64,000 nucleotides of DNA from Polytrichum commune (Eukaryota > Streptophyta > Polytrichopsida > Polytrichales > Polytrichaceae). The notes below the pieces were generated by a model. That model did not search any database. It saw only the letters and a program-made list of their open reading frames with translations, and was not told the DNA's origin. Position 1 is the stretch's first letter; every line of letters begins with the position of its first letter. Below are positions 5,211-54,167 of this stretch, piece after piece. The stretch covers positions 26,895,501-26,959,500 of the forward strand of contig OX485805.1 of assembly GCA_950295325.1 (NCBI GenBank). Reading direction: 5' to 3'. The translations under genes and the position numbers were made by a program.

Positions 5211-5640
5211 TTGCAAGTTCTTGTTTCAATAGCCTGGGAGATTTTTGGGGATAACCAATGAAAAATCTTAGTGTTTCCAAGTTTAATCAATTACAGGTTG
5301 TGATCTTTGGGGGGCTCTTTATTAATTTTAAGGTATATTCCATGGATCCTCTAGAATGATGGGCAGTTCTCATGAAGTCTTGGACTACAACCGGTTAGTT
5401 CTCAAACTCAATTGGTTCGTCTGTAACTAGCGCTCGGTTCTCCCCGTTCATTGTGTTGTTTATCCCTTCCAACTGTTCTTTTTTGAAGTGAAGGAGAACT
5501 TGCACTAGCTTGGCATATACTTGCCTAGTGCTTAAAGAAAACGGGACATACAATGTCCTTAGGCATGGGCGACCTTGTTTCAGTATTTGTTGGTCTAGCT
5601 GGTTAGCTTGTGAAGCTTGGGACTCTTTTGTACACATATT
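5211..5640 (+). repeat. dispersed 'NGENR' repeat, copy 1
   Basis: This belongs to a family also seen at 19026-19258, 19870-20100, 45085-45265 and 54885-55330. It has two blocks: one with TTAGTGTTTCCAAGT followed by an ATTAATTTTAAGGTATATTCCA-like stretch, the other with CTCAAACTCAATTGGTTCGT then CGGTTCTCCCCGTTCAT. Read on the minus strand, the second block encodes NGENR, a short variable part, then TDEPIEFE. That peptide also recurs at 45 kb. It may be the tail of an unidentified mobile element. Confidence 0.6.
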
Positions 5641-6101
5641 TTGATTAGTTTTTTCATTTTGGGACCACTTACTACAAAGATCAATTTGCCTTGGTGGGGT
5701 ACGAGGCTCTGGTCGGCAGTAGTACGAATGATTTGACCATTGTTGGTTTTGATATTGTTTGCACTAAAAAGCTTGGTGGATTATGATGAATTTTGTGTTC
5801 ATTTGCATGGCACTCCGGATATTGATCTTCTGCACTCATTGTTGTTAATATGTTATTCTTCGTTCTTGACTTGCAGTTTTCATCAAGTTTTTGGAAGTGC
5901 AGCAGGAAGAATCTATGGTGCATGTTTTAGGTATGAATACTCTCCCTCTCCTTTCTTTTGTAACGTAATGAATTGATGAGAGTTTTGGCACACATGTTGA
6001 CTTATGACCATGCTCGAGTATCACGTGTTGAAAATCAACCAAGTGTTGCTTGCAATTTCATGCAATGAATAGTTTTGGCCTGACATGGATGGTACTACCT
6101 A
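5641..6101. other. upstream region of the kinase-NLR gene
   Basis: A plus-strand frame at 5740-5976 is open for 78 codons but carries no motif I recognise. It could hold a 5' exon or leader sequence of the downstream gene, but there is no direct support. No clear TATA box was chosen. Confidence 0.3.
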
Positions 6102-9100
6102 ATGCTTATGTCCTTCAATAACTACCATTCTTCAAATTCAGGAGAAATCATGGCCAAGTGTTTCATCATGGCCAAAACTTTGCAATTCGTTCGCATGATT
6201 TGGGGTTTTATAAGTATTTGGTTTGTAAAGCTTGGGACATATGTGGGAAAAGGACAAAAACAAAGCAATGAGCTTGGAGATATTATGAAATGGCACACGG
6301 AGGAAGTAAAGGAACTTCAAGAGGTTCTGAAGGCGGAGCAAGTGTTGAATGAGAAACAATGCATAAATCTTGTTGACAAGCTTGACCAAGTTGTGCTTTG
6401 TGTGAATGAGATGATCACATCCACTAAGGAGACGTCGAATAAATTTGGGCTTGTGCTTGGGGAGTTACATCGCATTACTCGAAAAGTAAGAGTATTGGTC
6501 CAAGATTGTGGGAAGCAAGAATGGTGCAATGCAGTGGCATTCCAAATGAACAATACAGAGGCCTTTCGAGAACTTGTGGATGATTTGAGGTGTTTTTGGG
6601 ATGCAATGTGCGAAGAGTATCTGGCGATCTATTCGGATTCACAACATTTTAGAATCCCATGTATTGATTTTAGTGTGGCCACTTATGACGAAATCGAAAG
6701 TGATGAAAAAGCCATGGTGGAAAGGCTCGAGAAACGACTTAAAAAAACGCCCAATGATTCCAAGGAGTATGAATTGGCAAAACATTTATTGAGGAGATTG
6801 CAATTTGAATTGCCACAAGTGAAAGGTGCAGAACTGGATGCTTTAGAAATTCCAAAGGATGTCGCAAAGCCGGTATTCTTAAAAAAAATAGGAACCGGAG
6901 CAGCGGGTGCAGTTCACAAATCAACATGGTTGGGACTTCAAATTGCAACAAAAATGTTAGGAGTTCTCCCCAACTTTCGCAAAGAAGCTGGCATCTTAGC
7001 ATGCTTGGGCCATCCAAACCTTGTCAAATTCATTTGTTGTGGAAGATTTGATGAAACTCATGAGGGCAATGTGGATGGATCAAACAATGTCTCAGAAAAT
7101 TTGTTTCTAGTAATGGAGCTCATGGAGACGAGTTTGAGTGATTTGGTGAAGAAGCAGAAGACGCCTTTACGATATCTTTTTGCCATTGGTGTGATGCATG
7201 AAATCGCAAGGGGCATGTGTTATCTTCATGACATGCATGTTGCCCATCTTGATTTAAAGCCAAGCAATGTGCTTCTAAGCTCCGTGTCGAGACTTGTAGG
7301 AGTCAAGGGATATATTGGCTATGATTTTGTCAAATTGACAGATTACGATACTTCCAAAACGGAGGTTCAAAGCAAACCGGAGTTACAAAAGCATACTATC
7401 GGTACACCAAAATACATGGCACCTGAGATGAATAACAACAACAAATATGAATCACCTTCAAATATGGCATGTCCTTTTCCAGCTGATGTATGGTCATTTG
7501 GTATGACATGTTCAGAGATCCTTTCTTTGAAGGAACCATTTCTAGACAGAGATAATAGAGAGGTTATCTTGCAAAAAATTAAAGATGGTTGGAGGCCTGA
7601 GCTACCTATCAATTGTGAGGAACTCACCACTTTGATCGAAGAATGTTGGATTGAGGATCCATCACAAAGGCCAACATTTTCTTACATTTGTAAGAGGCTC
7701 GCAACCTTGAAGAAGAAGTTCATGATTGGAATATATTCAAATGATTTACCAAAATTTGACAAAGGTGGGACTTGTTCCCCAAGCACTCAACTGAAGAAGG
7801 CCTCTGACCATATGAATGTCTTTGCTCTGAAGAAGGTAAGAACACATTCCATCACAATATGCTTATTGTGTATATTTGAGATGTCATTATTAATTAATTT
7901 TTTATTTTCTTGACATGATAATTGAAACCAAAACATAGGATCCGGTGCAAGCATGGTCAATTGGTCCAATAGAGGGGTCATGTATGTTGAAATCACAAAT
8001 ATCTTTGTCAAAGGCTATAAAAGTAGCACTAAACAGTCTTCCAAGTAGGATTTGGTTATGCGGAGCTCTTTATAATTGTTGCAAGTATTCAATATAGAAT
8101 ATCAAAATGTTGTCTTCAAAATTTATCACGAAAATAATGTCCACAAAGTAATGACTACAGTGGGTTAAAGAAGCAAAATTCATGACCTCACATGTAATTT
8201 TAGAACTTGAACTAATTTATGAATTTGTCCTTGAGTTCATGATGAACCGGAGGGCTCCATCAAATAGAAAACCAAAGCAATCAAATTAATACATTCAAAA
8301 CTAATTTGAAGGAACTTTCTTCATCACGCAAATTGTTTTCCAATTTGAGTTGCTTCCAACATCTTCAAAAGTATGTACATTATTCTTTTATAGATTTATG
8401 TGGAACATATTGATGAAGTTCTAAAAACAAGTTTTGAATACCTTCTAGAAAATATTTACCGTATTCATATTTAGTGTGCATTTCGAATCTTCTATCATAG
8501 TGTACACTTCTTGATCCAATTGACATGATATGTGAACTTCTTCATACAGGTGGATGCAGGAAAAAAACAATATGAAGATGTGGTTGGTCTTGAAAGCAAT
8601 CTTGCAAAGGTGAGAAACCACCTAAAACAAGTGAACATTTTGGGTCTCATTGGTATGGGTGGAATAGGGAAGACCACCTTGGCGAAGGCCATATTTGATG
8701 ATGTGAGGTCTACATACAATGCATCATGTTTTATTGAAAATATGAAAAGTAGAAATTCACTCGAAATCTTATGTGAAATTTTACGAAAGTTTGGAAAGGA
8801 TGAAGAATCCACTTGGACATTGGTGGATGCACAGAAGATAATGCGGGAGTTGTTGGCTAAGAAGAAAGTCCTTATAATATTGGATGATCCAAAAGATGCA
8901 GCTCAAGTGCGTGAAATAGTACCAGAAGATGTTTCTTGTGTCAACAATGGCACCAAAATTCTTATAACAACTCGTGGTTGGGCTTTAATTGAAAATCGTG
9001 TGGACGTAAATGGTAGGATAGATGTTGATAGGTTAGATGAAAATGCGGCGAGAGAACTCTTTGATTCTTACGTTTTTGTGGATGGAGCTCAATTATCATC

Positions 9101-11888
9101 ACAACTCTTTGATGTACGTGAAAAAATCATACAAAAATGTAACGGCTTGCCTTTGAGCTTGAAAGTGATGGGTGCATTCTTACGAGGAAAGGAGAGGATA
9201 AGAAGTTGGGAACGGGCTTTCCAAAGGATGAAAAGGGGTAGGCATTTGGATGGCGATGAAGGGCTTTGGAGTACGTTGATGATCAGCTTTGATGGACTGG
9301 AACACAGTGAGAAAGACATGTTTTTGGACCTAGCATGTTTTCTTCCCTTGAGCATGAGAGAAAAAACCTTGCGTTTATGTACCGACTATGGCGCCTCTCC
9401 AAATCACGTGCTTGATATATTGGTGGACAATTCCTTGGTTACGATAGATCAAAAGGGGAATGTAGAAATGCACGATCAACTACGTGACATGGGACGTATG
9501 ATTGCCGAGACAAACAAGGAATATTTGGGCACTCGAATTTGGAAACTAAACATGATTCCTTTACGAATTGGATCCACACATGACAAGGTATGGTGCACAT
9601 AAAAGAGCTTAATAAGGTTGATTTTTGTGAAATGCAAAATATAGATATGTTGGTGAAAGTTTGCGTTTCTAAGTTGTTTAAGTTTGACATTTGACACTTG
9701 TGTCATATGTAGTGTAATGGTTTTCCAATCTCATTTAAACACGACAGTCAAATTTAATTACCACTCTAATTAATGAAACACAATTCTGACATTTGTTGAT
9801 GTCTTTGAAACCCATAACTACAACAAATTAGAAGCAATTTATGTAGATGGACAAATTTCAAGATGGCTCGAGCACAATTCCACAGGCATGAAACACATTG
9901 ATGTAAGCTCTCTTCGATTATTGATATGTAAGGGATTGATAACATTACCGAAGACATTGGGGAACTTGACGTCTTTGACAACATTGGATTTATCAGATTG
10001 TTCGAGCTTGACAAGATTACGGCATACATTGGAGAACTTGACGTCTTTGACAACACTGGTTGTATCAGATTGTTCGAGCTTGACAATGTTAGCGGAAGCA
10101 TTGGGGAACTCGACATCTTTGACAACATTGTATTTGACTAGGTGTTGCAGCCTGACAACATTATCGGAGGCATTGGGGAACTTAACGTCTTTGACAACAT
10201 TGGATTTATCAGAGTGTCGGAACTTGTTAGGATTACCGAACGCATTGGGGAACTTGATGTTTTTGACAACATTGGATTTATCAGAGTGTTCAAGCTTGAC
10301 AACATTACCGCAGACATTGGGGAACTTGACGTCTTTGACAACATTGATTTTGAGAGCGTGTTCGAGCTTGACAACATTACCGGAGGCATTGGGGAACTTG
10401 ATGTCTTTGACAACATTGAATTTATCAGAGTGTTGGAACTTGACAAGATTACCGGAGGTCTTGGGGAACTTGACGTCTTTGACAACATTGAATTTATCAG
10501 AGTGTTCGAGCTTGACAAGAATACCGGAGGTCTTGGGGAACTTGACGTCTTTGACAACATTGTATTTGAGTAGGTGTTGGAGCTTGATAACATTACCGGA
10601 GGCATTGGGAAACTTGACGTCTTTGACAACATTGGATTTATCAAAGTGTTGGAGGTTGACAACATTACCGGAGGATTTGGGGAACTTGATGTCTTTGACA
10701 ACATTGAATTTGTTTGGGTGTTCGAGATTGACAGCATTGCCGAAGGGATTGGGGAACTTGACGTCTCTGACAATATTGGATTTGTTTGGGTGTTCGAGCT
10801 TGACAACATTACCGGAGGCATTGGGGAACTTGGCATCTTTGACAACATTGGATTTGTCATGGTGTTCAATGTTGGAAAGATTACCTGACGCATTGGAGAA
10901 CTTGACGTCTTTGACAACATTGGATTTGAGAGGGTGTTCAAAGTTGAAAAGATTACCGGAGGCATTGGAGAACTTGACGTCTTTGACAACGTTTAATTTA
11001 TCCGAGTGTTCGAGCTTGACAAGATTACCGGAGACCTTTGGGAACTTGACATCTTTGACAACATTGTATTTGAATATGTGTTGGAGCTTGACAAGATTAC
11101 CGAACGCATTGGGGAATTGGACGTCTTTGACAACATTGAATTTATTAGAGTGTTCAAGCTTGACAAGATTACCGGAGGTCTTGGGGAACTCGACGTCTTT
11201 GACAACATTGGATTTATCATATTGTTCGAGCTTGACATCGTTACCGCAAGCATTGGGAAACTTGACGTCTTTGACAAGATTGGATTTATCAGATTGTTCG
11301 CTCTTGACATCGTTACCGCAAGCATTGGGGAACTTGACGTCTTTGACAACATCGAATTTGTCAGGGTGTTCGAGCTTGACAAGATTACCGGAGGCATTGG
11401 GGAACTTGACGTCTTTGACAACATTGAATTTATCAGAGTGTTGGAGCTTGAGAAGATTACCGGAGGTCTTGGGGAACTGGACGTCTTTGACAACATTGAA
11501 TTTATCAGAGTGTTCGAGCTTGACAACATTACCGGAGGCATTGGGGTACTTGACATCTTTGACAACATTGGATTTGTCATGGTGTTGGAGCTTGATAACA
11601 TTACCGGAGGCATTGGGAAACTTGACGTCTTTGACAACATTGGATTTATCAAAGTGTTGGAGGTTGACAACATTACCGGAGGATTTGGGGAACTTGATGT
11701 CTTTGACAACATTGAATTTGTTTGGGTGTTCGAGATTGACAACATTGCCGAAGGGATTGGGGAACTTGACGTCTTTGAGAACATTGTATTTGACTAGGTG
11801 TTGGAGCTTGACAACATTACCGGAGGGATTGGGGAACTCGACGTCTTTGACAACATTGGATTTATCAGATTGTTCGAGCTTGACATAG
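6102..11888 (+). CDS. protein kinase-NB-ARC-LRR immune receptor (PNL class)
   Basis: This is a candidate intracellular immune receptor. Exon 1 (6102-7835, 578 codons) ends at AAG|GTAAG. Exon 2 (8550-9587, 346 codons) starts after ATACAG and ends at AAG|GTATGG. Exon 3 ends at 11888. The first intron is phase 0. Residues 50-180 look like a helical bundle. The kinase spans about 258-540: Gly loop GTGAAGAV 263-270, Lys284, Glu295, HLDLKPSN 382-389, DYD 414-416, APE 440-442. NB-ARC covers 585-890: P-loop GMGGIGKTT with Lys619, kinase-2 LIILDDP, RNBS-B ILITTR, GLPL, MHD 885-887. About 27 LRRs of 24 residues follow. Met17 at 6150 is an alternative start. The exon 3 acceptor is uncertain: the frame is open from 9777, and the only in-phase AG is at 9871-9872, with a weak context. 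Known family: the PK-NBS-LRR class of mosses. The array runs on past the stop, so the gene may be truncated or decaying. The kinase and NB-ARC parts could alternatively be separate genes. Confidence 0.8.
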
Positions 11889-13150
11889 TTAAAACAAGCA
11901 TTGGGGAACTTGACATCTTTGACAACATTGTATTTGACTAGGTGTTGGAGCTTGACAACATACCGGAGGCATTGGGGAACTCGACATCTTTGACAACATT
12001 GGATTTATCAGATTGTTCGAGCTTGACATAGTTAAAACAAGCATTGGGGAACTTGACTTCTTTGACAACATTGTATTTGACTAGGTGTTGGAACTTGACA
12101 ACATTACCGGAGGGATTGGGAAACTCGACGTCTTTGACAACATTGGATTTATCAGATTGTTCGAGCTTGACATAGTTAAAACAAGCATTGGGGAACTTGA
12201 CGTCTTTGACAACATCGAATTTATGAGAGTGTTCGAGCTTGACAAGATTACAGGAGGCCTTGGGGAACTTGATGTCTTTGACAACATTGGATTTGTCTTG
12301 GTGTTCAAAATTGACAACTTTACAGGAGGCATTGGGAAACTTGACGTCTTTGACAACATTGTATTTGAGTATGTATTCCAGCTTGACAACATTACCGAAG
12401 GTGTTGATGAACTTGACGTCTTTGACAACATTGTATAAGTCAGGATGTTCGACCTTGACAACATAACCGGATGCATTGGGGAACTTGACGCCTTTAACAA
12501 CATTGGATTTGTCTTCATGTTTTCGCTTAACAAAATTTGCCGGAGGCATTGGCGAATTTGTTATCTTTGACAACATTGGATTTGTCTTCATGTTCTCGCT
12601 TAACAACATTGCCGGAGGTATTAGGGAAGTTGACGTCTTTGACTACATTGAATTTGCCAGGGTGTTCGAGCTTGACAGAATTACCGGAGGCATTGGGGAA
12701 CTTGACGTCTTTGACAACATTGAATTTGTCAGTGTGTTCTAGCTTGACAAGATTACCGGAGGTCTTTGGGGAACTTGACATCTTTGGCAACATTGGATTT
12801 GTCTTGGTGTTCAAACTTGATAACATTACCAGAGGCATTGGGAAACTTGACGTCTTTGACAACATTGGATTTATCAAAGTGTTGGAGGTTGATAACATTA
12901 CCGGAGGCATTGGGGAACTTGAAGTCTTTGACAACGTTGAATTTGTCTATCTGTTCGAGCTTGATCACATTACCGGAGGCATTGGGGAACTTGACGTCTT
13001 TGACAAAATTGAATGTATATGCATGTTCAAGCTTGACAACATTAACGGAAGTTGTCTGGGTGTTCAAGTTTGACAACATTATGTGAAGCATTGGGGAACT
13101 TGACGTCTTTGACAACATTGAATTTGTTTGGGTGTTTGAACTTGACAACA
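9930..13150 (+). repeat. 72-bp tandem LRR-coding array, about 44 units
   Basis: Units of 72 bp (24 codons, pattern ALGNLTSLTTLDLSxC) repeat almost without spacers. Each contains GGGGAACTTGACGTCTTTG and AACATTGGATTTATC variants. Two stretches of at least 180 bp (from 10574 and 11582) are almost identical and 1008 bp apart, exactly 14 units, which shows a higher-order duplication. A third, similar block begins near 12800. Up to 11888 the sense frame is intact; beyond that it breaks. The same array is also open in a second forward frame and on the minus strand for up to 283 codons; I treat those frames as by-products of periodicity. Confidence 0.92.
11889..13150 (+). pseudogene. decayed 3' part of the LRR array
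   Basis: LRR coding continues here for about 17 units, but in broken frames. The CTTGACATAG stop context that ends the main frame recurs at about 12024 and 12168, each followed by GTTAAAACAAGC. The spacing is 143 and 144 bp, so a two-unit block carrying the stop was tandemly copied. A one-base loss near 11960 and a one-base gain near 12765 shift frame. Shorter LRR frames survive at 12239-12466, 12537-12764 and 12766-13068. It is either a dead 3' extension of the receptor gene or a reservoir of LRR units. An intron skipping the stops was not found. Confidence 0.75.
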
Positions 13151-13159
13151 TTGTTCACC

Positions 13160-14025
13160 ACAAATTTCAATGACAAAGGCGAGAATCACCGAAATCGCCA
13201 CATAAGAAGGATTATTTAGAAAGGTTTAAGGGGGCTTATGGGCCGGTTATGAATTAGTAAAATAAGAAACTACGTAAAGCTAATTGGCCGTAATTAGTAA
13301 GCCAATTTAGGCTAGTAGAGTATTTAGAGGCTAGTTAATAAGTCACGTAGCAAGCCACTTAGGATTAGGGGACCCCATGGTGATTAATACTCACCTAAGC
13401 CACGTAGGTGAGGCAACCGGAGATAGAAGTAAGTAAGGGCCAAGAAATGACTTCTTGGTTAGCCTTATGAATCTTCCTCAAACCTAGATAGTATTAGGTA
13501 GATTTTAGAACAGAATCTACCACATGTGGAACTTAAAAGAAGATGAGGATTATAAGTGTTCTTTTCAAAGATGTCCAGAAGAGCTATCTTCGTCTTCTTA
13601 GTAAAAAATTATAGATATGATAAATTAAAAAGAGGGCACATTTTAGGCACCTCTTCTCAATATGAATAAAGTTAGAATACCTTACCTTATTCGTGACGAT
13701 AAGCTACATGAGAGCTAGGTCCTTTGTATCTTTACCAATTTTGAGTACACGAGCTTCAAGCTCAATCTTCTTCATAGTGATTCCTGCTAGAGGCCAAAGT
13801 ATAAATTGTTAGCTTAGACTTATTCAAGTTGAGAGATTAAGAATGCAACTTGAGATGTTCTATAGCAACTCACATGAGATGAGATAGTTGAATGGAATTT
13901 TTTTATTAAAGACATTCACATGAGGCGAGATAGTTGTGAGAGATGTTTAATTGAACTCACATGAGGTGAGAGAAAGTGTAGGTAATGAAAGGTAATTGTG
14001 TAATTGATTATGGGTACTCACATAG
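13160..14025. other. between LRR arrays, no gene recognised
   Basis: The LRR units stop abruptly near 13150. The following sequence shows short iterations of CACATGAGRTGAGATAGTTG (about 13870-13975) but no coding motif. It may be an insertion separating this array from the LRR island at 16.1 kb. Confidence 0.45.
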
Positions 14026-14033
14026 GATGAGGA

Positions 14034-14442
14034 CATGGGTAGATCACTCCATTGTCAAGTTGAACACCACGTGCGACCAAAAAAAAATTTCTTTTGGTAA
14101 GTTGCACCACCAAAATGGGTCAAAATTTTATCAAAATTTGTTCATGAGTAGATATACACAGTACCTATGACAAAGTTAAAAGTGGTAACTAAATTTGATG
14201 ATTTTTTTTTTCATAAAACATACCATTTCTAACTAGAATGACACAGAATTGAACTAAAAAAATTACTAAAAAAAATAAAGATTACTGAAATTTTCAAAAA
14301 GGTATACAAAAGATACTATCAATGGTTATGTATATGTAGAAAAAATATCATAAATTTCAAAATTATATATGGCATGTAATATAGGGGTAGCAAACTTTGG
14401 CCGCACGTGGTGTTAACTTGACAATGAAGTGACCTCCCCGTG
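14034..14442. mobile_element. hAT-type MITE, family A, complete copy
   Basis: A 409-bp element with terminal inverted repeats of about 38 bp (GATCACTCCATTGTCAAGTT at the left, its complement at the right, inside CAYGGG...CCCGTG ends). It is flanked by the 8-bp direct repeat GATGAGGA (14026-14033 and 14443-14450). An 8-bp duplication with CA...TG ends is diagnostic of the hAT superfamily. No transposase is encoded, so it is non-autonomous. Copies of the same family lie at 17447-17808 and 53758-54167. Confidence 0.93.
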
Positions 14443-14450
14443 GATGAGGA

Positions 14451-16124
14451 TGAACGCTTGAGAAATTTTATGAAATTTATTAGGAGATTATGAATGACTA
14501 CCGATAGTAATGGAAAGTGAGAGAAAGAGTTTGATAAGAATAGTTGTGGAAATGGCAAGGACAAGTGATGATTGAGCGTATATGATTATTCATATCTACT
14601 AAGTTGTTTTGCTTTAACATAAATTGAACATAAGTAATTATTGTGTATTTAATTTGCTAACTATGAATGGATTGCTCAACGACCATAAACTTACAACATC
14701 TAAGACTCAAAAATTTATTGATTGAAGAATGAAATGTAATGAGGAGAGTTATGATCCAATAATGTATTATGATGGCTCTTATCAAACAATGATAAGTTTA
14801 CATATTATATTACTATAAAAGTTGCTTAATCATAATATGACTATGACCAAGACACATATGATTACGACTCTAAATGCTAATCATATAGAAACTACCTTAT
14901 AGAGAGATTGAAATTGAAAGAAAATAATTAAGAATGTTGCAGGAATGCCTCGTCAAGAGTTGGTGAGGAAATGAGAAATTGGTAGAGGCATTAATACTTG
15001 GATAGAGAGGAAATCTCCTCTCTATAGGAAAAGAGTGTCTAACAACAATTTGTTTACCATTAGATTGCTCTCTATGCATGTTTTATCGGAAAGACGTTCC
15101 AGTAATGAAGATTAACGATTAAGGGTCTAGGAGGAAGAGTCAAGAATGAGACAAAAATTTGGAATGAAAAGCACTTGGTCACTTATGAAGTGGAAGAAGA
15201 GTTAACTTGGTTACTTGGCTACTTGAGTAACTTGGCTACCTATACAAGAGATATGGGATTATTTGACTAATTTAAAAGAGACATTTCATTATTTAGCTAC
15301 ATGGAGGGAAAAAGTTAACTTGAAGACGAAGACGATACGAACACGTGGATACTTGGATACTTGGTTATTTGGATACTTGGTTATTTGGATACTTGATCAC
15401 TTGGAGAGAAGATAACTTGTTGACTATTCGGAGTTGAAGTTAACTTGATACTTAGATACTTGAAAGAAGAGTTAACTTATTACTTGGTTATATTGGCTAC
15501 TTGGCAATCGGAGAAAAAAGATAATTTCCTACTTGGTTACTTAAGTTACTTAATTCCTTGAAGGAAATGTTAACTAGCAACTTGAAAAGAAGAGGAGACA
15601 ACAGCGGCACATGAAAAAGTTACTCAAAATGGAGTGAACAAGATCAAACTAGATATAGAAGAAATACTTGAGCTTAATAACAACTGCGGCACATGAAGAA
15701 GTTACGACACTACAATATACAAGGAGAAGAGAACAAACTTCCGACCTAGAAGTAACACTTCAGCTAAAAGATACAAGTTTGACACATGAAGAAGTTACAT
15801 ACAAGAAGAAAGTTACAAACAAACAAGTTGATAAATAGAAACAACACTTGGACGAACAAGAAGACTATTTGAAGAGATATCATCAAGTGAAGAAGTGCAA
15901 AAGGATTTTTTTAAGTAACTTTAAAGTCCATCATGACAAATACAAGGTAGAGAAGTTTTTAAAAGAAGAAAGAAGGCATCAACCAAGTTGACAAGAAAAA
16001 ACAACCCAGAAGCGACTACAACAAACAACAAGGAGATTAGGGAGTTTAGTCGTCATAATCCGGACAACACTGTAAGTCACTACAATATGGTCAACCCTAG
16101 GAACAAGTGGAGGTAGTTGAAGTC
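14451..16124. other. intergenic with TTGGATACTT-rich low-complexity stretch
   Basis: No gene was recognised. From about 15190 to 15560 the sequence is built of imperfect ten-base units of the type ACTTGGATACTTGGTTATTT. From 15590 to 16010, A-rich repeats of CACATGAAGAAGTTAC are scattered. Open frames here are short and motif-free. Confidence 0.55.
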
Positions 16125-16970
16125 TACAAACATTACCGGAGGCATTGGAGAACTTCACATATCTGACAACATTGAATTTGTCTAAGTGTTCGAGCTTGAC
16201 AACATTACAGTAGGCATTGTGGAACTTGACGTCCTTGACAACATTGAATTTGTTTGAGAGTTGGAGATTGACAACATTACTGGAGGCATTGGGGAAACTG
16301 ATGTCTTTGTAAACATTGATTTTGTCTAAGTGTTTGAATTTGACAACATTTTGGGAGGCATTGGGGAACTTGACGTGTTTGGAAATATTGAATTTGTATG
16401 GGTGTCAGAGATTGACAACATTACCGGAGGCATTGAGGAACTTAACTTCTCTGACAACATTGAATTTGTCTCAGTATTCGAGCTTGATAACATTATTGGA
16501 GGCATTGGGGAATTTGACATCTTCACAACATTGGATTTGTCTAGGTGTGATAGCTTGACAACATTACTGGAGGCATTGGGAAACTTGATGTCTTTGACAA
16601 CATTAGATTTATCTAGGTGTTGAAGCTAGACAACATTACCGGAGGCATCGGAGAACTTGACTTCTTTGACAACATTGAATTTGTCTAATTATTTAAGCTT
16701 GACAACATTACCGGAGGCATTGGGGAACCTAACGTCTTTGGAAGTATTGGATTATTTTTTCTGTTGGAGCTTGATAACATTACCGGAGGCATTGTGGAAC
16801 TTAACGTCTTTGGAAATATTGGACTATTTTTTCTGTTGGAGCTTGATAACATTTTCGGAGGCATTGGGAAACTTGAAGTCTTTGACAACATTGCAATTGA
16901 ATGGGTTTTTGAAGGTGTCAACATAAGTAGAGGCATTGGGGAACTTGACTTCTTTGACAGATTCTTCCCA
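16125..16970 (+). pseudogene. detached LRR-array island, degenerate
   Basis: About twelve 72-bp LRR units reappear 3 kb after the main array. In-frame peptides such as LPEALGNLTSLTTLNLS survive at 16316-16558 and 16657-16926, separated by stops and frameshifts. Unit sequences are more diverged than in the main array (for example GATTATTTTTTCTGTTGGAG variants). It may be the original distal end of the receptor gene separated by inserted DNA, or the tail of a neighbouring lost paralogue. No kinase or NB-ARC part lies beside it. Confidence 0.8.
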
Positions 16971-17446: not shown

Positions 17447-17808
17447 GGAGATTACTGTAAAGCATCACCAAAATAGGTCAAAATTTTATCAATTTGTTTT
17501 CATGAGTAGATATACATTGTATCTATTACATAGTAAAAAATGGTAACCAAATTCGATGATTCTTTTCAAATTTTTAATAAAACAGACTGTTTTTAACTAG
17601 AATGATGCATAATTGAACTAAAACAATTACTACAAAAATGAAGATGACTAAAAATTTCAAACTTTTTTTTACAAAAGATACTATCAATGGTTATGTATAT
17701 GTAGAAAAAATATCATAAACCTTATAATTTTCTATGGCATGTAATATAGGGGTAGCAAACTTTGTTTGCATGTGGTGTTCAACTTATCAATGGAGTGACC
17801 TCCCCGTG
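17447..17808. mobile_element. hAT-type MITE, family A, internally deleted copy
   Basis: This matches family A from the CACCAAAATRGGTCAAAA block to the right terminus, which ends in GTGACCTCCCCGTG. About 50 bases near the left end are missing, and the left terminus is degraded. No matching 8-bp duplication could be found, in line with an older copy than the ones at 14 kb and 53.8 kb. Confidence 0.85.
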
Positions 17809-53757: not shown

Positions 53758-54167
53758 CACGGGGGGGTCACTCCATTGTCAAGTTGAACACCACGTGTGA
53801 CCAAAAAAAATCTTCTTTTAGTAAGTTGCACCACCAAAATGGGTCAAAATTTTATCAAATTTTTTTCATGAGTAAATATACACAGTACCTATGACAAAGT
53901 TTAAAGTGGTAACTAAATTTGATGATTTGTTTTTTTCATAAAACATACCGTTTCTAACTAGAATGACACAGATTGAACTAAAACAATTACTAAAAAAAAT
54001 AAAGATGACCAAAAATTTTAAAAACAATATACAAAAGATACTATCAATGGTTATGTATATGTAGAAAAAATATCATAAAATTTAAAATTATATATGGCAT
54101 GTAATATAGGGGTAGCAAACTTTGTCCGCATGTGGTGTCAACTTGACAATGAAATGACCTCCCCATG
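53758..54167. mobile_element. hAT-type MITE, family A, complete copy 2
   Basis: 410 bp, about 90% or more similar by eye to 14034-14442. The ends are CACGGGGGGGTCACT and GACCTCCCCATG. The flanks TCGTAATC and TCCTAATC are an 8-bp duplication with one mismatch. It inserted right beside MITE C. Confidence 0.93.

Follow-up and report, generated by a model that had tools for sequence, protein, structure and literature searches.

A HeLo-like domain and brace precede the kinase in a moss kinase-NLR gene family, in the order of plant MLKL

We analyzed a 64,000-nucleotide stretch of the moss Polytrichum commune (assembly GCA_950295325.1, contig OX485805.1, positions 26,895,501 to 26,959,500 of the forward strand), hereafter the window, which carries a gene for a protein kinase (PK), an NB-ARC domain and leucine-rich repeats (LRRs). 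As the first-pass annotation of the window had supposed, the gene belongs to the moss PNL class (PK-NBS-LRR, with NBS for nucleotide-binding site) described by Xue et al. in 2012, including its phase-0 intron (PMC3352924). That class is already known; what is new is the front half of the product, where a HeLo-like domain and then a brace, ordered as in plant MLKL, lie within the 236 residues ahead of the kinase. Three things are evident at the level of sequence: the order of the domains, homology between the HeLo-like domain and that of plant MLKL, and the fusion of all parts in a single frame in relatives. We infer the function: the front half of this PNL member is probably an MLKL-type module, working as an executioner gated by a nucleotide-binding leucine-rich repeat receptor (NLR). 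Because the HeLo-like domain and brace stand before the kinase in MLKL order, we read the moss "kinase-NLR" as a fusion of MLKL with an NLR and give an even chance to the broader proposal that moss kinase-NLRs are complete MLKL-NLR fusions, with sensor, switch and necroptosis-type executioner in one chain and the kinase as a clamp.

The coding part of exon 1 (6168..7835, plus strand, as are all gene features below) is an open frame that was aligned with 22 related N-termini. It contains the HeLo-like domain, of the MLKL N-terminal type (6318..6611, aligned to residues 21-125 of the Protein Data Bank [PDB] entry 6lba), a brace-like helical linker (6675..6869) and the kinase domain (6876..7700, Pfam PF07714/PF00069). 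The PDB sequences closest to exon 1 were 6lba_A (E value, 1.3e-42) and 6ka4_A (5.4e-37), which we take to be AtMLKL3 and AtMLKL2, respectively. The N-terminal part of 6lba is collinear with exon 1 but weak, at 11.6 bits. As in plant MLKL, a brace follows: the linker is collinear with 6lba at about residues 183-228 (6.8 bits alone), and the exon 1 alignments cross it.

The N-terminal domain was also examined separately from the kinase, using profiles of the closest N-termini (A1, 23 members), of PNL members only (A4), of standalone HeLo-kinases (A3 and A5) and of a mixed set including the window gene (A6). Against the PDB, with E values up to 10 admitted, the mixed profile found only 6lba at 2e-7 and 6ka4 at 0.015, apart from a single chance row (1.4). 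Of the standalone profiles, A3 found 6ka4 alone (0.0073), and A5 found both entries (6lba, 1.2e-9; 6ka4, 1.7e-5) plus a further row at 0.14. In shuffle controls against the 6lba HeLo domain, A4 scored 22.3 bits, with 10.8 the highest among 3000 shuffles, and A1 scored 16.1 bits (highest shuffle, 14.1), so that no shuffle out of 3000 reached the real score with either profile. Furthermore, six standalone N-termini scored 20.7-82.5 bits with A4 and their shuffles at most 10.6; the standalone relative L063 scored 50.1 bits. PNL and standalone HeLo-kinase profiles aligned to each other by hhalign at 99.4% and 99.5% (E value, 6e-23 for the latter), and A1 against the 6lba N-terminus reached a probability of 42% (E value, 2.7e-4), which we counted as negative or weak. 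The motif LN..QC..L ... L..L.R ... C....W..A ... E.F ... L is common to standalone moss HeLo-kinases and most of the aligned rows.

Searches were also made from the MLKL side. The 6lba N-terminus (106 amino acids [aa]) matched 17 places in the whole genome (E values, 0.15-2.4). Eleven of these lie in exon 1 of kinase-NB-ARC pairs (one via a fragment) and another lies 1.4 kb ahead of an NB-ARC match that had no pair, giving 12 in exon 1 of a kinase-NB-ARC locus; the rest comprise one broken PNL-like exon, one HeLo-like frame of 236 codons and three places elsewhere. DUF1221 (PF06760; Pfam cut-off, 25 bits), which is the HeLo domain of plant MLKL (PMC8559963), matched 16 places, one of them above the cut-off, and two of the weak matches (E values, 0.19 and 0.47) are PNL N-termini. 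In Pfam, L063 passes the cut-off with 26.3 bits and the best PNL member reaches 18.7 bits of the 25 needed. Among individual PNL members, L048 matches DUF1221 below the cut-off (E value, 0.0013), and L050 gives no DUF1221 match, with DUF7792 at 2.5e-4 and RPW8 at 0.0044. L066 matches MLKL_N (0.0038), and L065 matches RPW8 (4.9e-4) and DUF1221 (0.0013). A genome search with the RPW8 family, which was not used further, gave 19 places in long frames, 10 of them above the cut-off.

Several results weigh against the MLKL-type reading. Used on its own, profile A1 retrieves no MLKL from the PDB, only chance matches (best E value, 0.24). In Pfam, the window N-terminus has no PF06760 match, the 23 A1 members match no family significantly and the single-frame relative L039 has no HeLo-type match. 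A1 members match GIT1_C in 11 of 23 cases (best E value, 0.0031) and RPW8 in only 3 of 23 (best, 0.017), and MCAfunc is matched in 3 of 23 (best, 0.017). The link to MLKL thus appears to need the wider family. A single-sequence fold of exon 1 was useless (mean predicted local distance difference test score, 38), and it was therefore not used for a fold search. The conserved catalytic residues of the kinase and the broken LRR junction of the window gene, both described below, count on the same side.

The first-pass annotation had taken the kinase, NB-ARC and LRR frames as one gene. This collinear layout proved right for the family, whereas the join to the LRR is doubtful in the window gene itself. 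Pfam recovered the parts expected of the product: the open frame at 6084-7910 holds a protein kinase (PF07714, 1e-36), that at 8529-9599 an NB-ARC domain (4.6e-35) and a winged helix (WHD_ROQ1, 3.1e-14) and that at 9777-11885 LRRs. The junction of exons 1 and 2 is, as had been proposed, phase 0 with GT-AG sites (intron 1, 7836..8549, GTAAG...CAG). Exon 2 (8550..9587) carries NB-ARC at 8595-9236 and the winged helix at 9297-9506, and its NB-ARC signature motifs were correctly described as complete: P-loop (8652-8678), kinase-2, RNBS-B, GLPL, RNBS-D and MHD (9465-9482).

Family-wide pairing bears on whether this is one gene. The 408-Mb genome, in which the retrieved loci lie on seven contigs of 42-78 Mb, holds at least 117 matches to the NB-ARC exon and at least 79 to the kinase exon. 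A same-strand kinase match lies within 10 kb upstream of 75 of the 117 listed NB-ARC matches (two NB-ARC fragments share one kinase), and 74 of the 79 listed kinase matches are paired with a downstream NB-ARC on the same strand; two of the five unpaired ones are fragments of genes already listed. Two other arrangements within 10 kb of an NB-ARC, an upstream kinase match on the opposite strand and a downstream one on the same strand, were each seen for none of these 79. All three of the 42 unpaired NB-ARCs that were opened (L039, L043, and L084) carry a kinase; absence of a kinase is not shown for the rest. Of 26 subfamily A loci, 24 have the intron 1 donor GTAAG at an equivalent point and 23 have its AG acceptor; the window gene has both (L030 and L033 miss both sites, L034 the acceptor only). 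This intron shrinks to 282 bases in three subfamily A loci and, by alignment, to about 130-150 bases in subfamily B.

In some relatives the parts are joined in one uninterrupted frame. The HeLo-like domain, kinase, NB-ARC and LRR share a single frame of 2089 codons in L039 with L083 and of 1434 codons in L084, and the HeLo-like domain, kinase and NB-ARC share one of 971 codons in the stretch retrieved for L085. Window exon 1 is 34% identical to L039 over 512 residues and exon 2 is 39% identical over 343. Two separate adjoining genes, a kinase and an NB-LRR, would account for the 25 codons by which the kinase frame extends into intron 1 before its stop; however, the conserved phase-0 splice sites, the very short introns of some loci and the single-frame joining of kinase and NB-ARC leave this alternative highly improbable. 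With same-strand pairing added, it was rejected. The window gene accordingly shows the PNL features of a kinase N-terminal to NB-ARC on one strand and a phase-0 intron between kinase and NBS (as defined in PMC3352924). LRRs are joined to NB-ARC in L039 and L084, and the window has an LRR frame but has lost the ancestral acceptor. A tree of 18 rows unites PNL subfamilies A to D with the single-frame NLRs at 80/89. Because it has flagged long branches and a midpoint root, a single fusion event for these groups is only suggested.

Two side observations concern related frames. The HeLo part of a standalone moss kinase, used as a genome query, gave 150 listed places, many in frames of 1000-3674 codons; those opened (L039, L084, and L085) are HeLo-kinase-NB-ARC genes that have no introns there and carry canonical HRD and DFG. 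At L057-L058 (G000:C3:43.69-43.79 Mb), HeLo-kinase frames exceed 900 aa and appear by eye to hold a second kinase-like stretch beyond the first kinase; for L057, Pfam reports the first kinase only.

The claim that all signature motifs of a kinase are present did not hold. In the window, the VAIK-type Lys (6951-6953) and alpha-C Glu (6984-6986) are followed by HLD (7245-7253) in place of HRD and DYD (7341-7349) in place of DFG. In a comparison of 30 kinase loci from subfamilies A and B, the window gene among them, HLD replaces HRD in 29 and DYD replaces DFG in 27 (DYG in 2, neither in 1), while Lys, Glu and the catalytic-loop Asp are kept in all 30 and APE in 29. The domain therefore departs both from the plant MLKL pseudokinase without catalytic residues, since Lys, Glu and Asp are kept, and from a canonical Ser/Thr kinase, with HLD and DYD where HRD and DFG are expected. 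The intact Lys and Glu, together with three single-frame relatives (L039, L084, and L085) that have HRD and DFG, mean that an active kinase in the family is possible.

These residues support a kinase-output NLR, in which the kinase would phosphorylate targets once the NLR is activated, with the HeLo-like domain serving only as a scaffold or localization part. One review presents phosphorylation as the straightforward expectation (PMC10952240), and the MLKL Pm13 has the full set of key kinase residues (PMC10951266). Set against this are the DFG Gly-to-Asp and HRD Arg-to-Leu changes in nearly all loci and the MLKL layout of HeLo-like domain plus brace, and we consider kinase output unlikely. The first-pass annotation was right that a kinase domain is present, but it overlooked the HeLo-like domain and brace ahead; because these precede the kinase, we read an MLKL-type module instead of a kinase output. 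A still less likely alternative is that the kinase is an integrated decoy, a bait for pathogen effectors. According to NLRtracker, the "integrated" domains found in P. patens NLRs are mainly protein kinases (PMC8559963). However, HeLo-like domain, brace and kinase form one unit in the aligned exons, with 50-86% identity across subfamilies, and this unit precedes NB-ARC in the single-frame loci. Since it travels as one unit, an output module fits better than a recent bait.

With the front half read as an MLKL-type module, activation could proceed as follows. The LRR would sense a cue, and NB-ARC would swap ADP for ATP and oligomerize. The resulting NLR wheel would bring the MLKL modules together and the HeLo bundles would be released from the brace-kinase clamp, to disturb the plasma membrane and cause cell death or ion flux. 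The HLD/DYD kinase part would serve mainly as a clamp or platform that responds to nucleotide; as an enzyme it would be weak at best. HeLo-type domains of MLKL and RPW8 have been linked to cell death (PMC10951266, PMC9950082, and PMC9815663), the HeLo domain of AtMLKL is able to elicit it (PMC10951266) and the response to the kinase domain of a P. patens NLR in N. benthamiana was modest and variable (PMC11218826).

The start of the gene had been placed at 6102. The conserved ATG is instead that at 6168 (MAK...), present in all 17 aligned loci in the shared context TCATGGCCAA. In-frame ATGs at 6102 and 6150 are common to the window gene and its sister L010 (G000:C3:26873062-26877630, 27 kb upstream); because L010 shares both and has itself lost the 6168 ATG, either could serve as the start in this pair. 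In L010, the exon 1 frame (802 aa) holds two tandem copies of the HeLo-brace stretch ahead of the kinase. The N-terminal segment that precedes the HeLo-like domain (6168..6266) is hydrophobic and aromatic, with a borderline 19-residue mean hydropathy of 1.29, compared with 1.55-2.07 in subfamily C and 0.77-1.11 in subfamily D. It is not specific, as the standalone row L064 reaches 1.56.

The window copy also cannot be called well preserved, as had been claimed, given its two altered kinase motifs and the losses that follow. The intron 2 donor is intact (AAG/GTATGG; GT in all 22 subfamily A loci examined), and the ancestral acceptor, CCCAG/AAC, is kept in 20 of 22 loci and lost in the window (CCCAT) and sister (CCCAA). 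Intron 2 up to this site spans 9588..9815, with AG changed to AT at 9814-9815; the exon 3 start so defined agrees by eye with intronless L039. A transcript that retained intron 2 would meet a stop at 9600-9602 and encode a truncated protein. Of the two subfamily B loci, L081 has the AG and L082 did not align. The LRR frame of 72-bp units (9816..11888) ends at a TAG (11886-11888) inside the array. Frame-broken LRR similarity runs on to about 13150, through a decayed continuation with several frames and stops (11889..13152), and recurs at 16129..16959 as a detached block of the 72-bp unit with no long LRR frame. This block, about 3 kb past the decayed end, may have been separated from the array by an insertion at 13153-16128. 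In six relatives, sequence matching the window 5' flank (to about 6147) stands upstream of exon 1 at a distance greater by 1.3-2.3 kb, which indicates that a 5' stretch is missing in the window and sister.

Codon comparisons point to a constrained family in which the youngest pair looks relaxed. Ratios of nonsynonymous to synonymous substitution rates were 0.23-0.50 for the kinase part against 10 paralogues (0.39 against the sister), 0.32-0.63 for the HeLo part (0.89) and 0.35-0.42 for exon 2 against six paralogues (0.79); the exon 1 tail (526-562), at 0.23-0.99, was not counted as constrained. On the window branch, exon 1 has 2 silent and 6 replacing changes and exon 2 has 2 and 8. It is thus a serious possibility, somewhat short of an even chance, that the window gene (not the family) is a decaying pseudogene or an LRR-less HeLo-kinase-NB-ARC gene, which is compatible with the MLKL-type reading. 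The lost acceptor, broken LRR tail, absent 5' stretch, high ratios against the sister and the 14 replacing to 4 silent changes all favor decay. On the other side, exons 1 and 2 have open frames, as does a 2.1-kb stretch of LRR, ratios against other paralogues are 0.19-0.63 outside the exon 1 tail, the kinase ratio is low even against the sister and a phase-0 AG near 9934, present also in the sister, could still join the LRR. The best explanation is that the window gene is a young, partly damaged paralogue, whose product may be HeLo-kinase-NB-ARC only or may include the LRR via a cryptic acceptor. Repeats also occur in its surroundings: a dispersed repeat (83-93% alike) lies at 14044-14442, 17462-17808 and 53768-54167, and about 220 bases at 5233-5453 match about 30 genome places, mostly at 78-82%, so that the 5' flank of the gene holds a common repeat.

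A link between moss kinase-NLRs and MLKL or HeLo domains was absent from the titles and abstract openings of open-access papers among the matches listed, and the available parts of PMC11218826, PMC10952240 and PMC8559963 do not make the MLKL link for these genes. Because subscription papers, preprints and supplements lay outside the literature search, we do not claim priority for it. The HeLo-brace-kinase front half predicts membrane execution by the HeLo bundle, where one review expects phosphorylation (PMC10952240). If this is true, plants would have a further route, besides coiled-coil and RPW8 domains, from an NLR directly to a HeLo-type membrane executioner, and plant MLKLs would be tied to NLRs by descent. 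Naturally fused MLKL-NLRs, some of them intronless and in a single frame, would suit study of how an NLR wheel releases an MLKL module.

Compared with known systems, this family shares with PNL genes the order of kinase, NB-ARC and LRR, the phase-0 intron between kinase and NBS and a large, often truncated membership; the PNL description, in the part available, names the PK domain only, and this family adds the HeLo-like domain, the brace and the altered HRD and DFG (PMC3352924). Pm13 of Aegilops longissima likewise combines a HeLo-type domain with a kinase in plant immunity, but it is without NB-ARC or LRR and its kinase residues are canonical and of active type (PMC10951266). Fungal NLRs with HeLo or MLKL_NTD also place a HeLo-type executioner on an NLR; they differ in their C-terminal repeats, and the available account does not name an MLKL kinase part (PMC9815663). 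Plant MLKL (DUF1221 HeLo, brace, and pseudokinase; 6lba and 6ka4) shares the domain order and a collinear HeLo-brace-kinase alignment. In contrast to plant MLKL, PNL proteins are not stand-alone but fused to NB-ARC-LRR, keep the catalytic Lys and have an extra N-terminal hydrophobic segment, and the DUF1221 model misses the window domain. RPW8-type NLRs (ADR1 and NRG1) resemble PNL in placing a HeLo-type bundle before NB-ARC-LRR. To our knowledge, these have no brace or kinase, and unlike them, the window gene has a winged helix that matches the model of Roq1, a Toll/interleukin-1 receptor (TIR)-type NLR.

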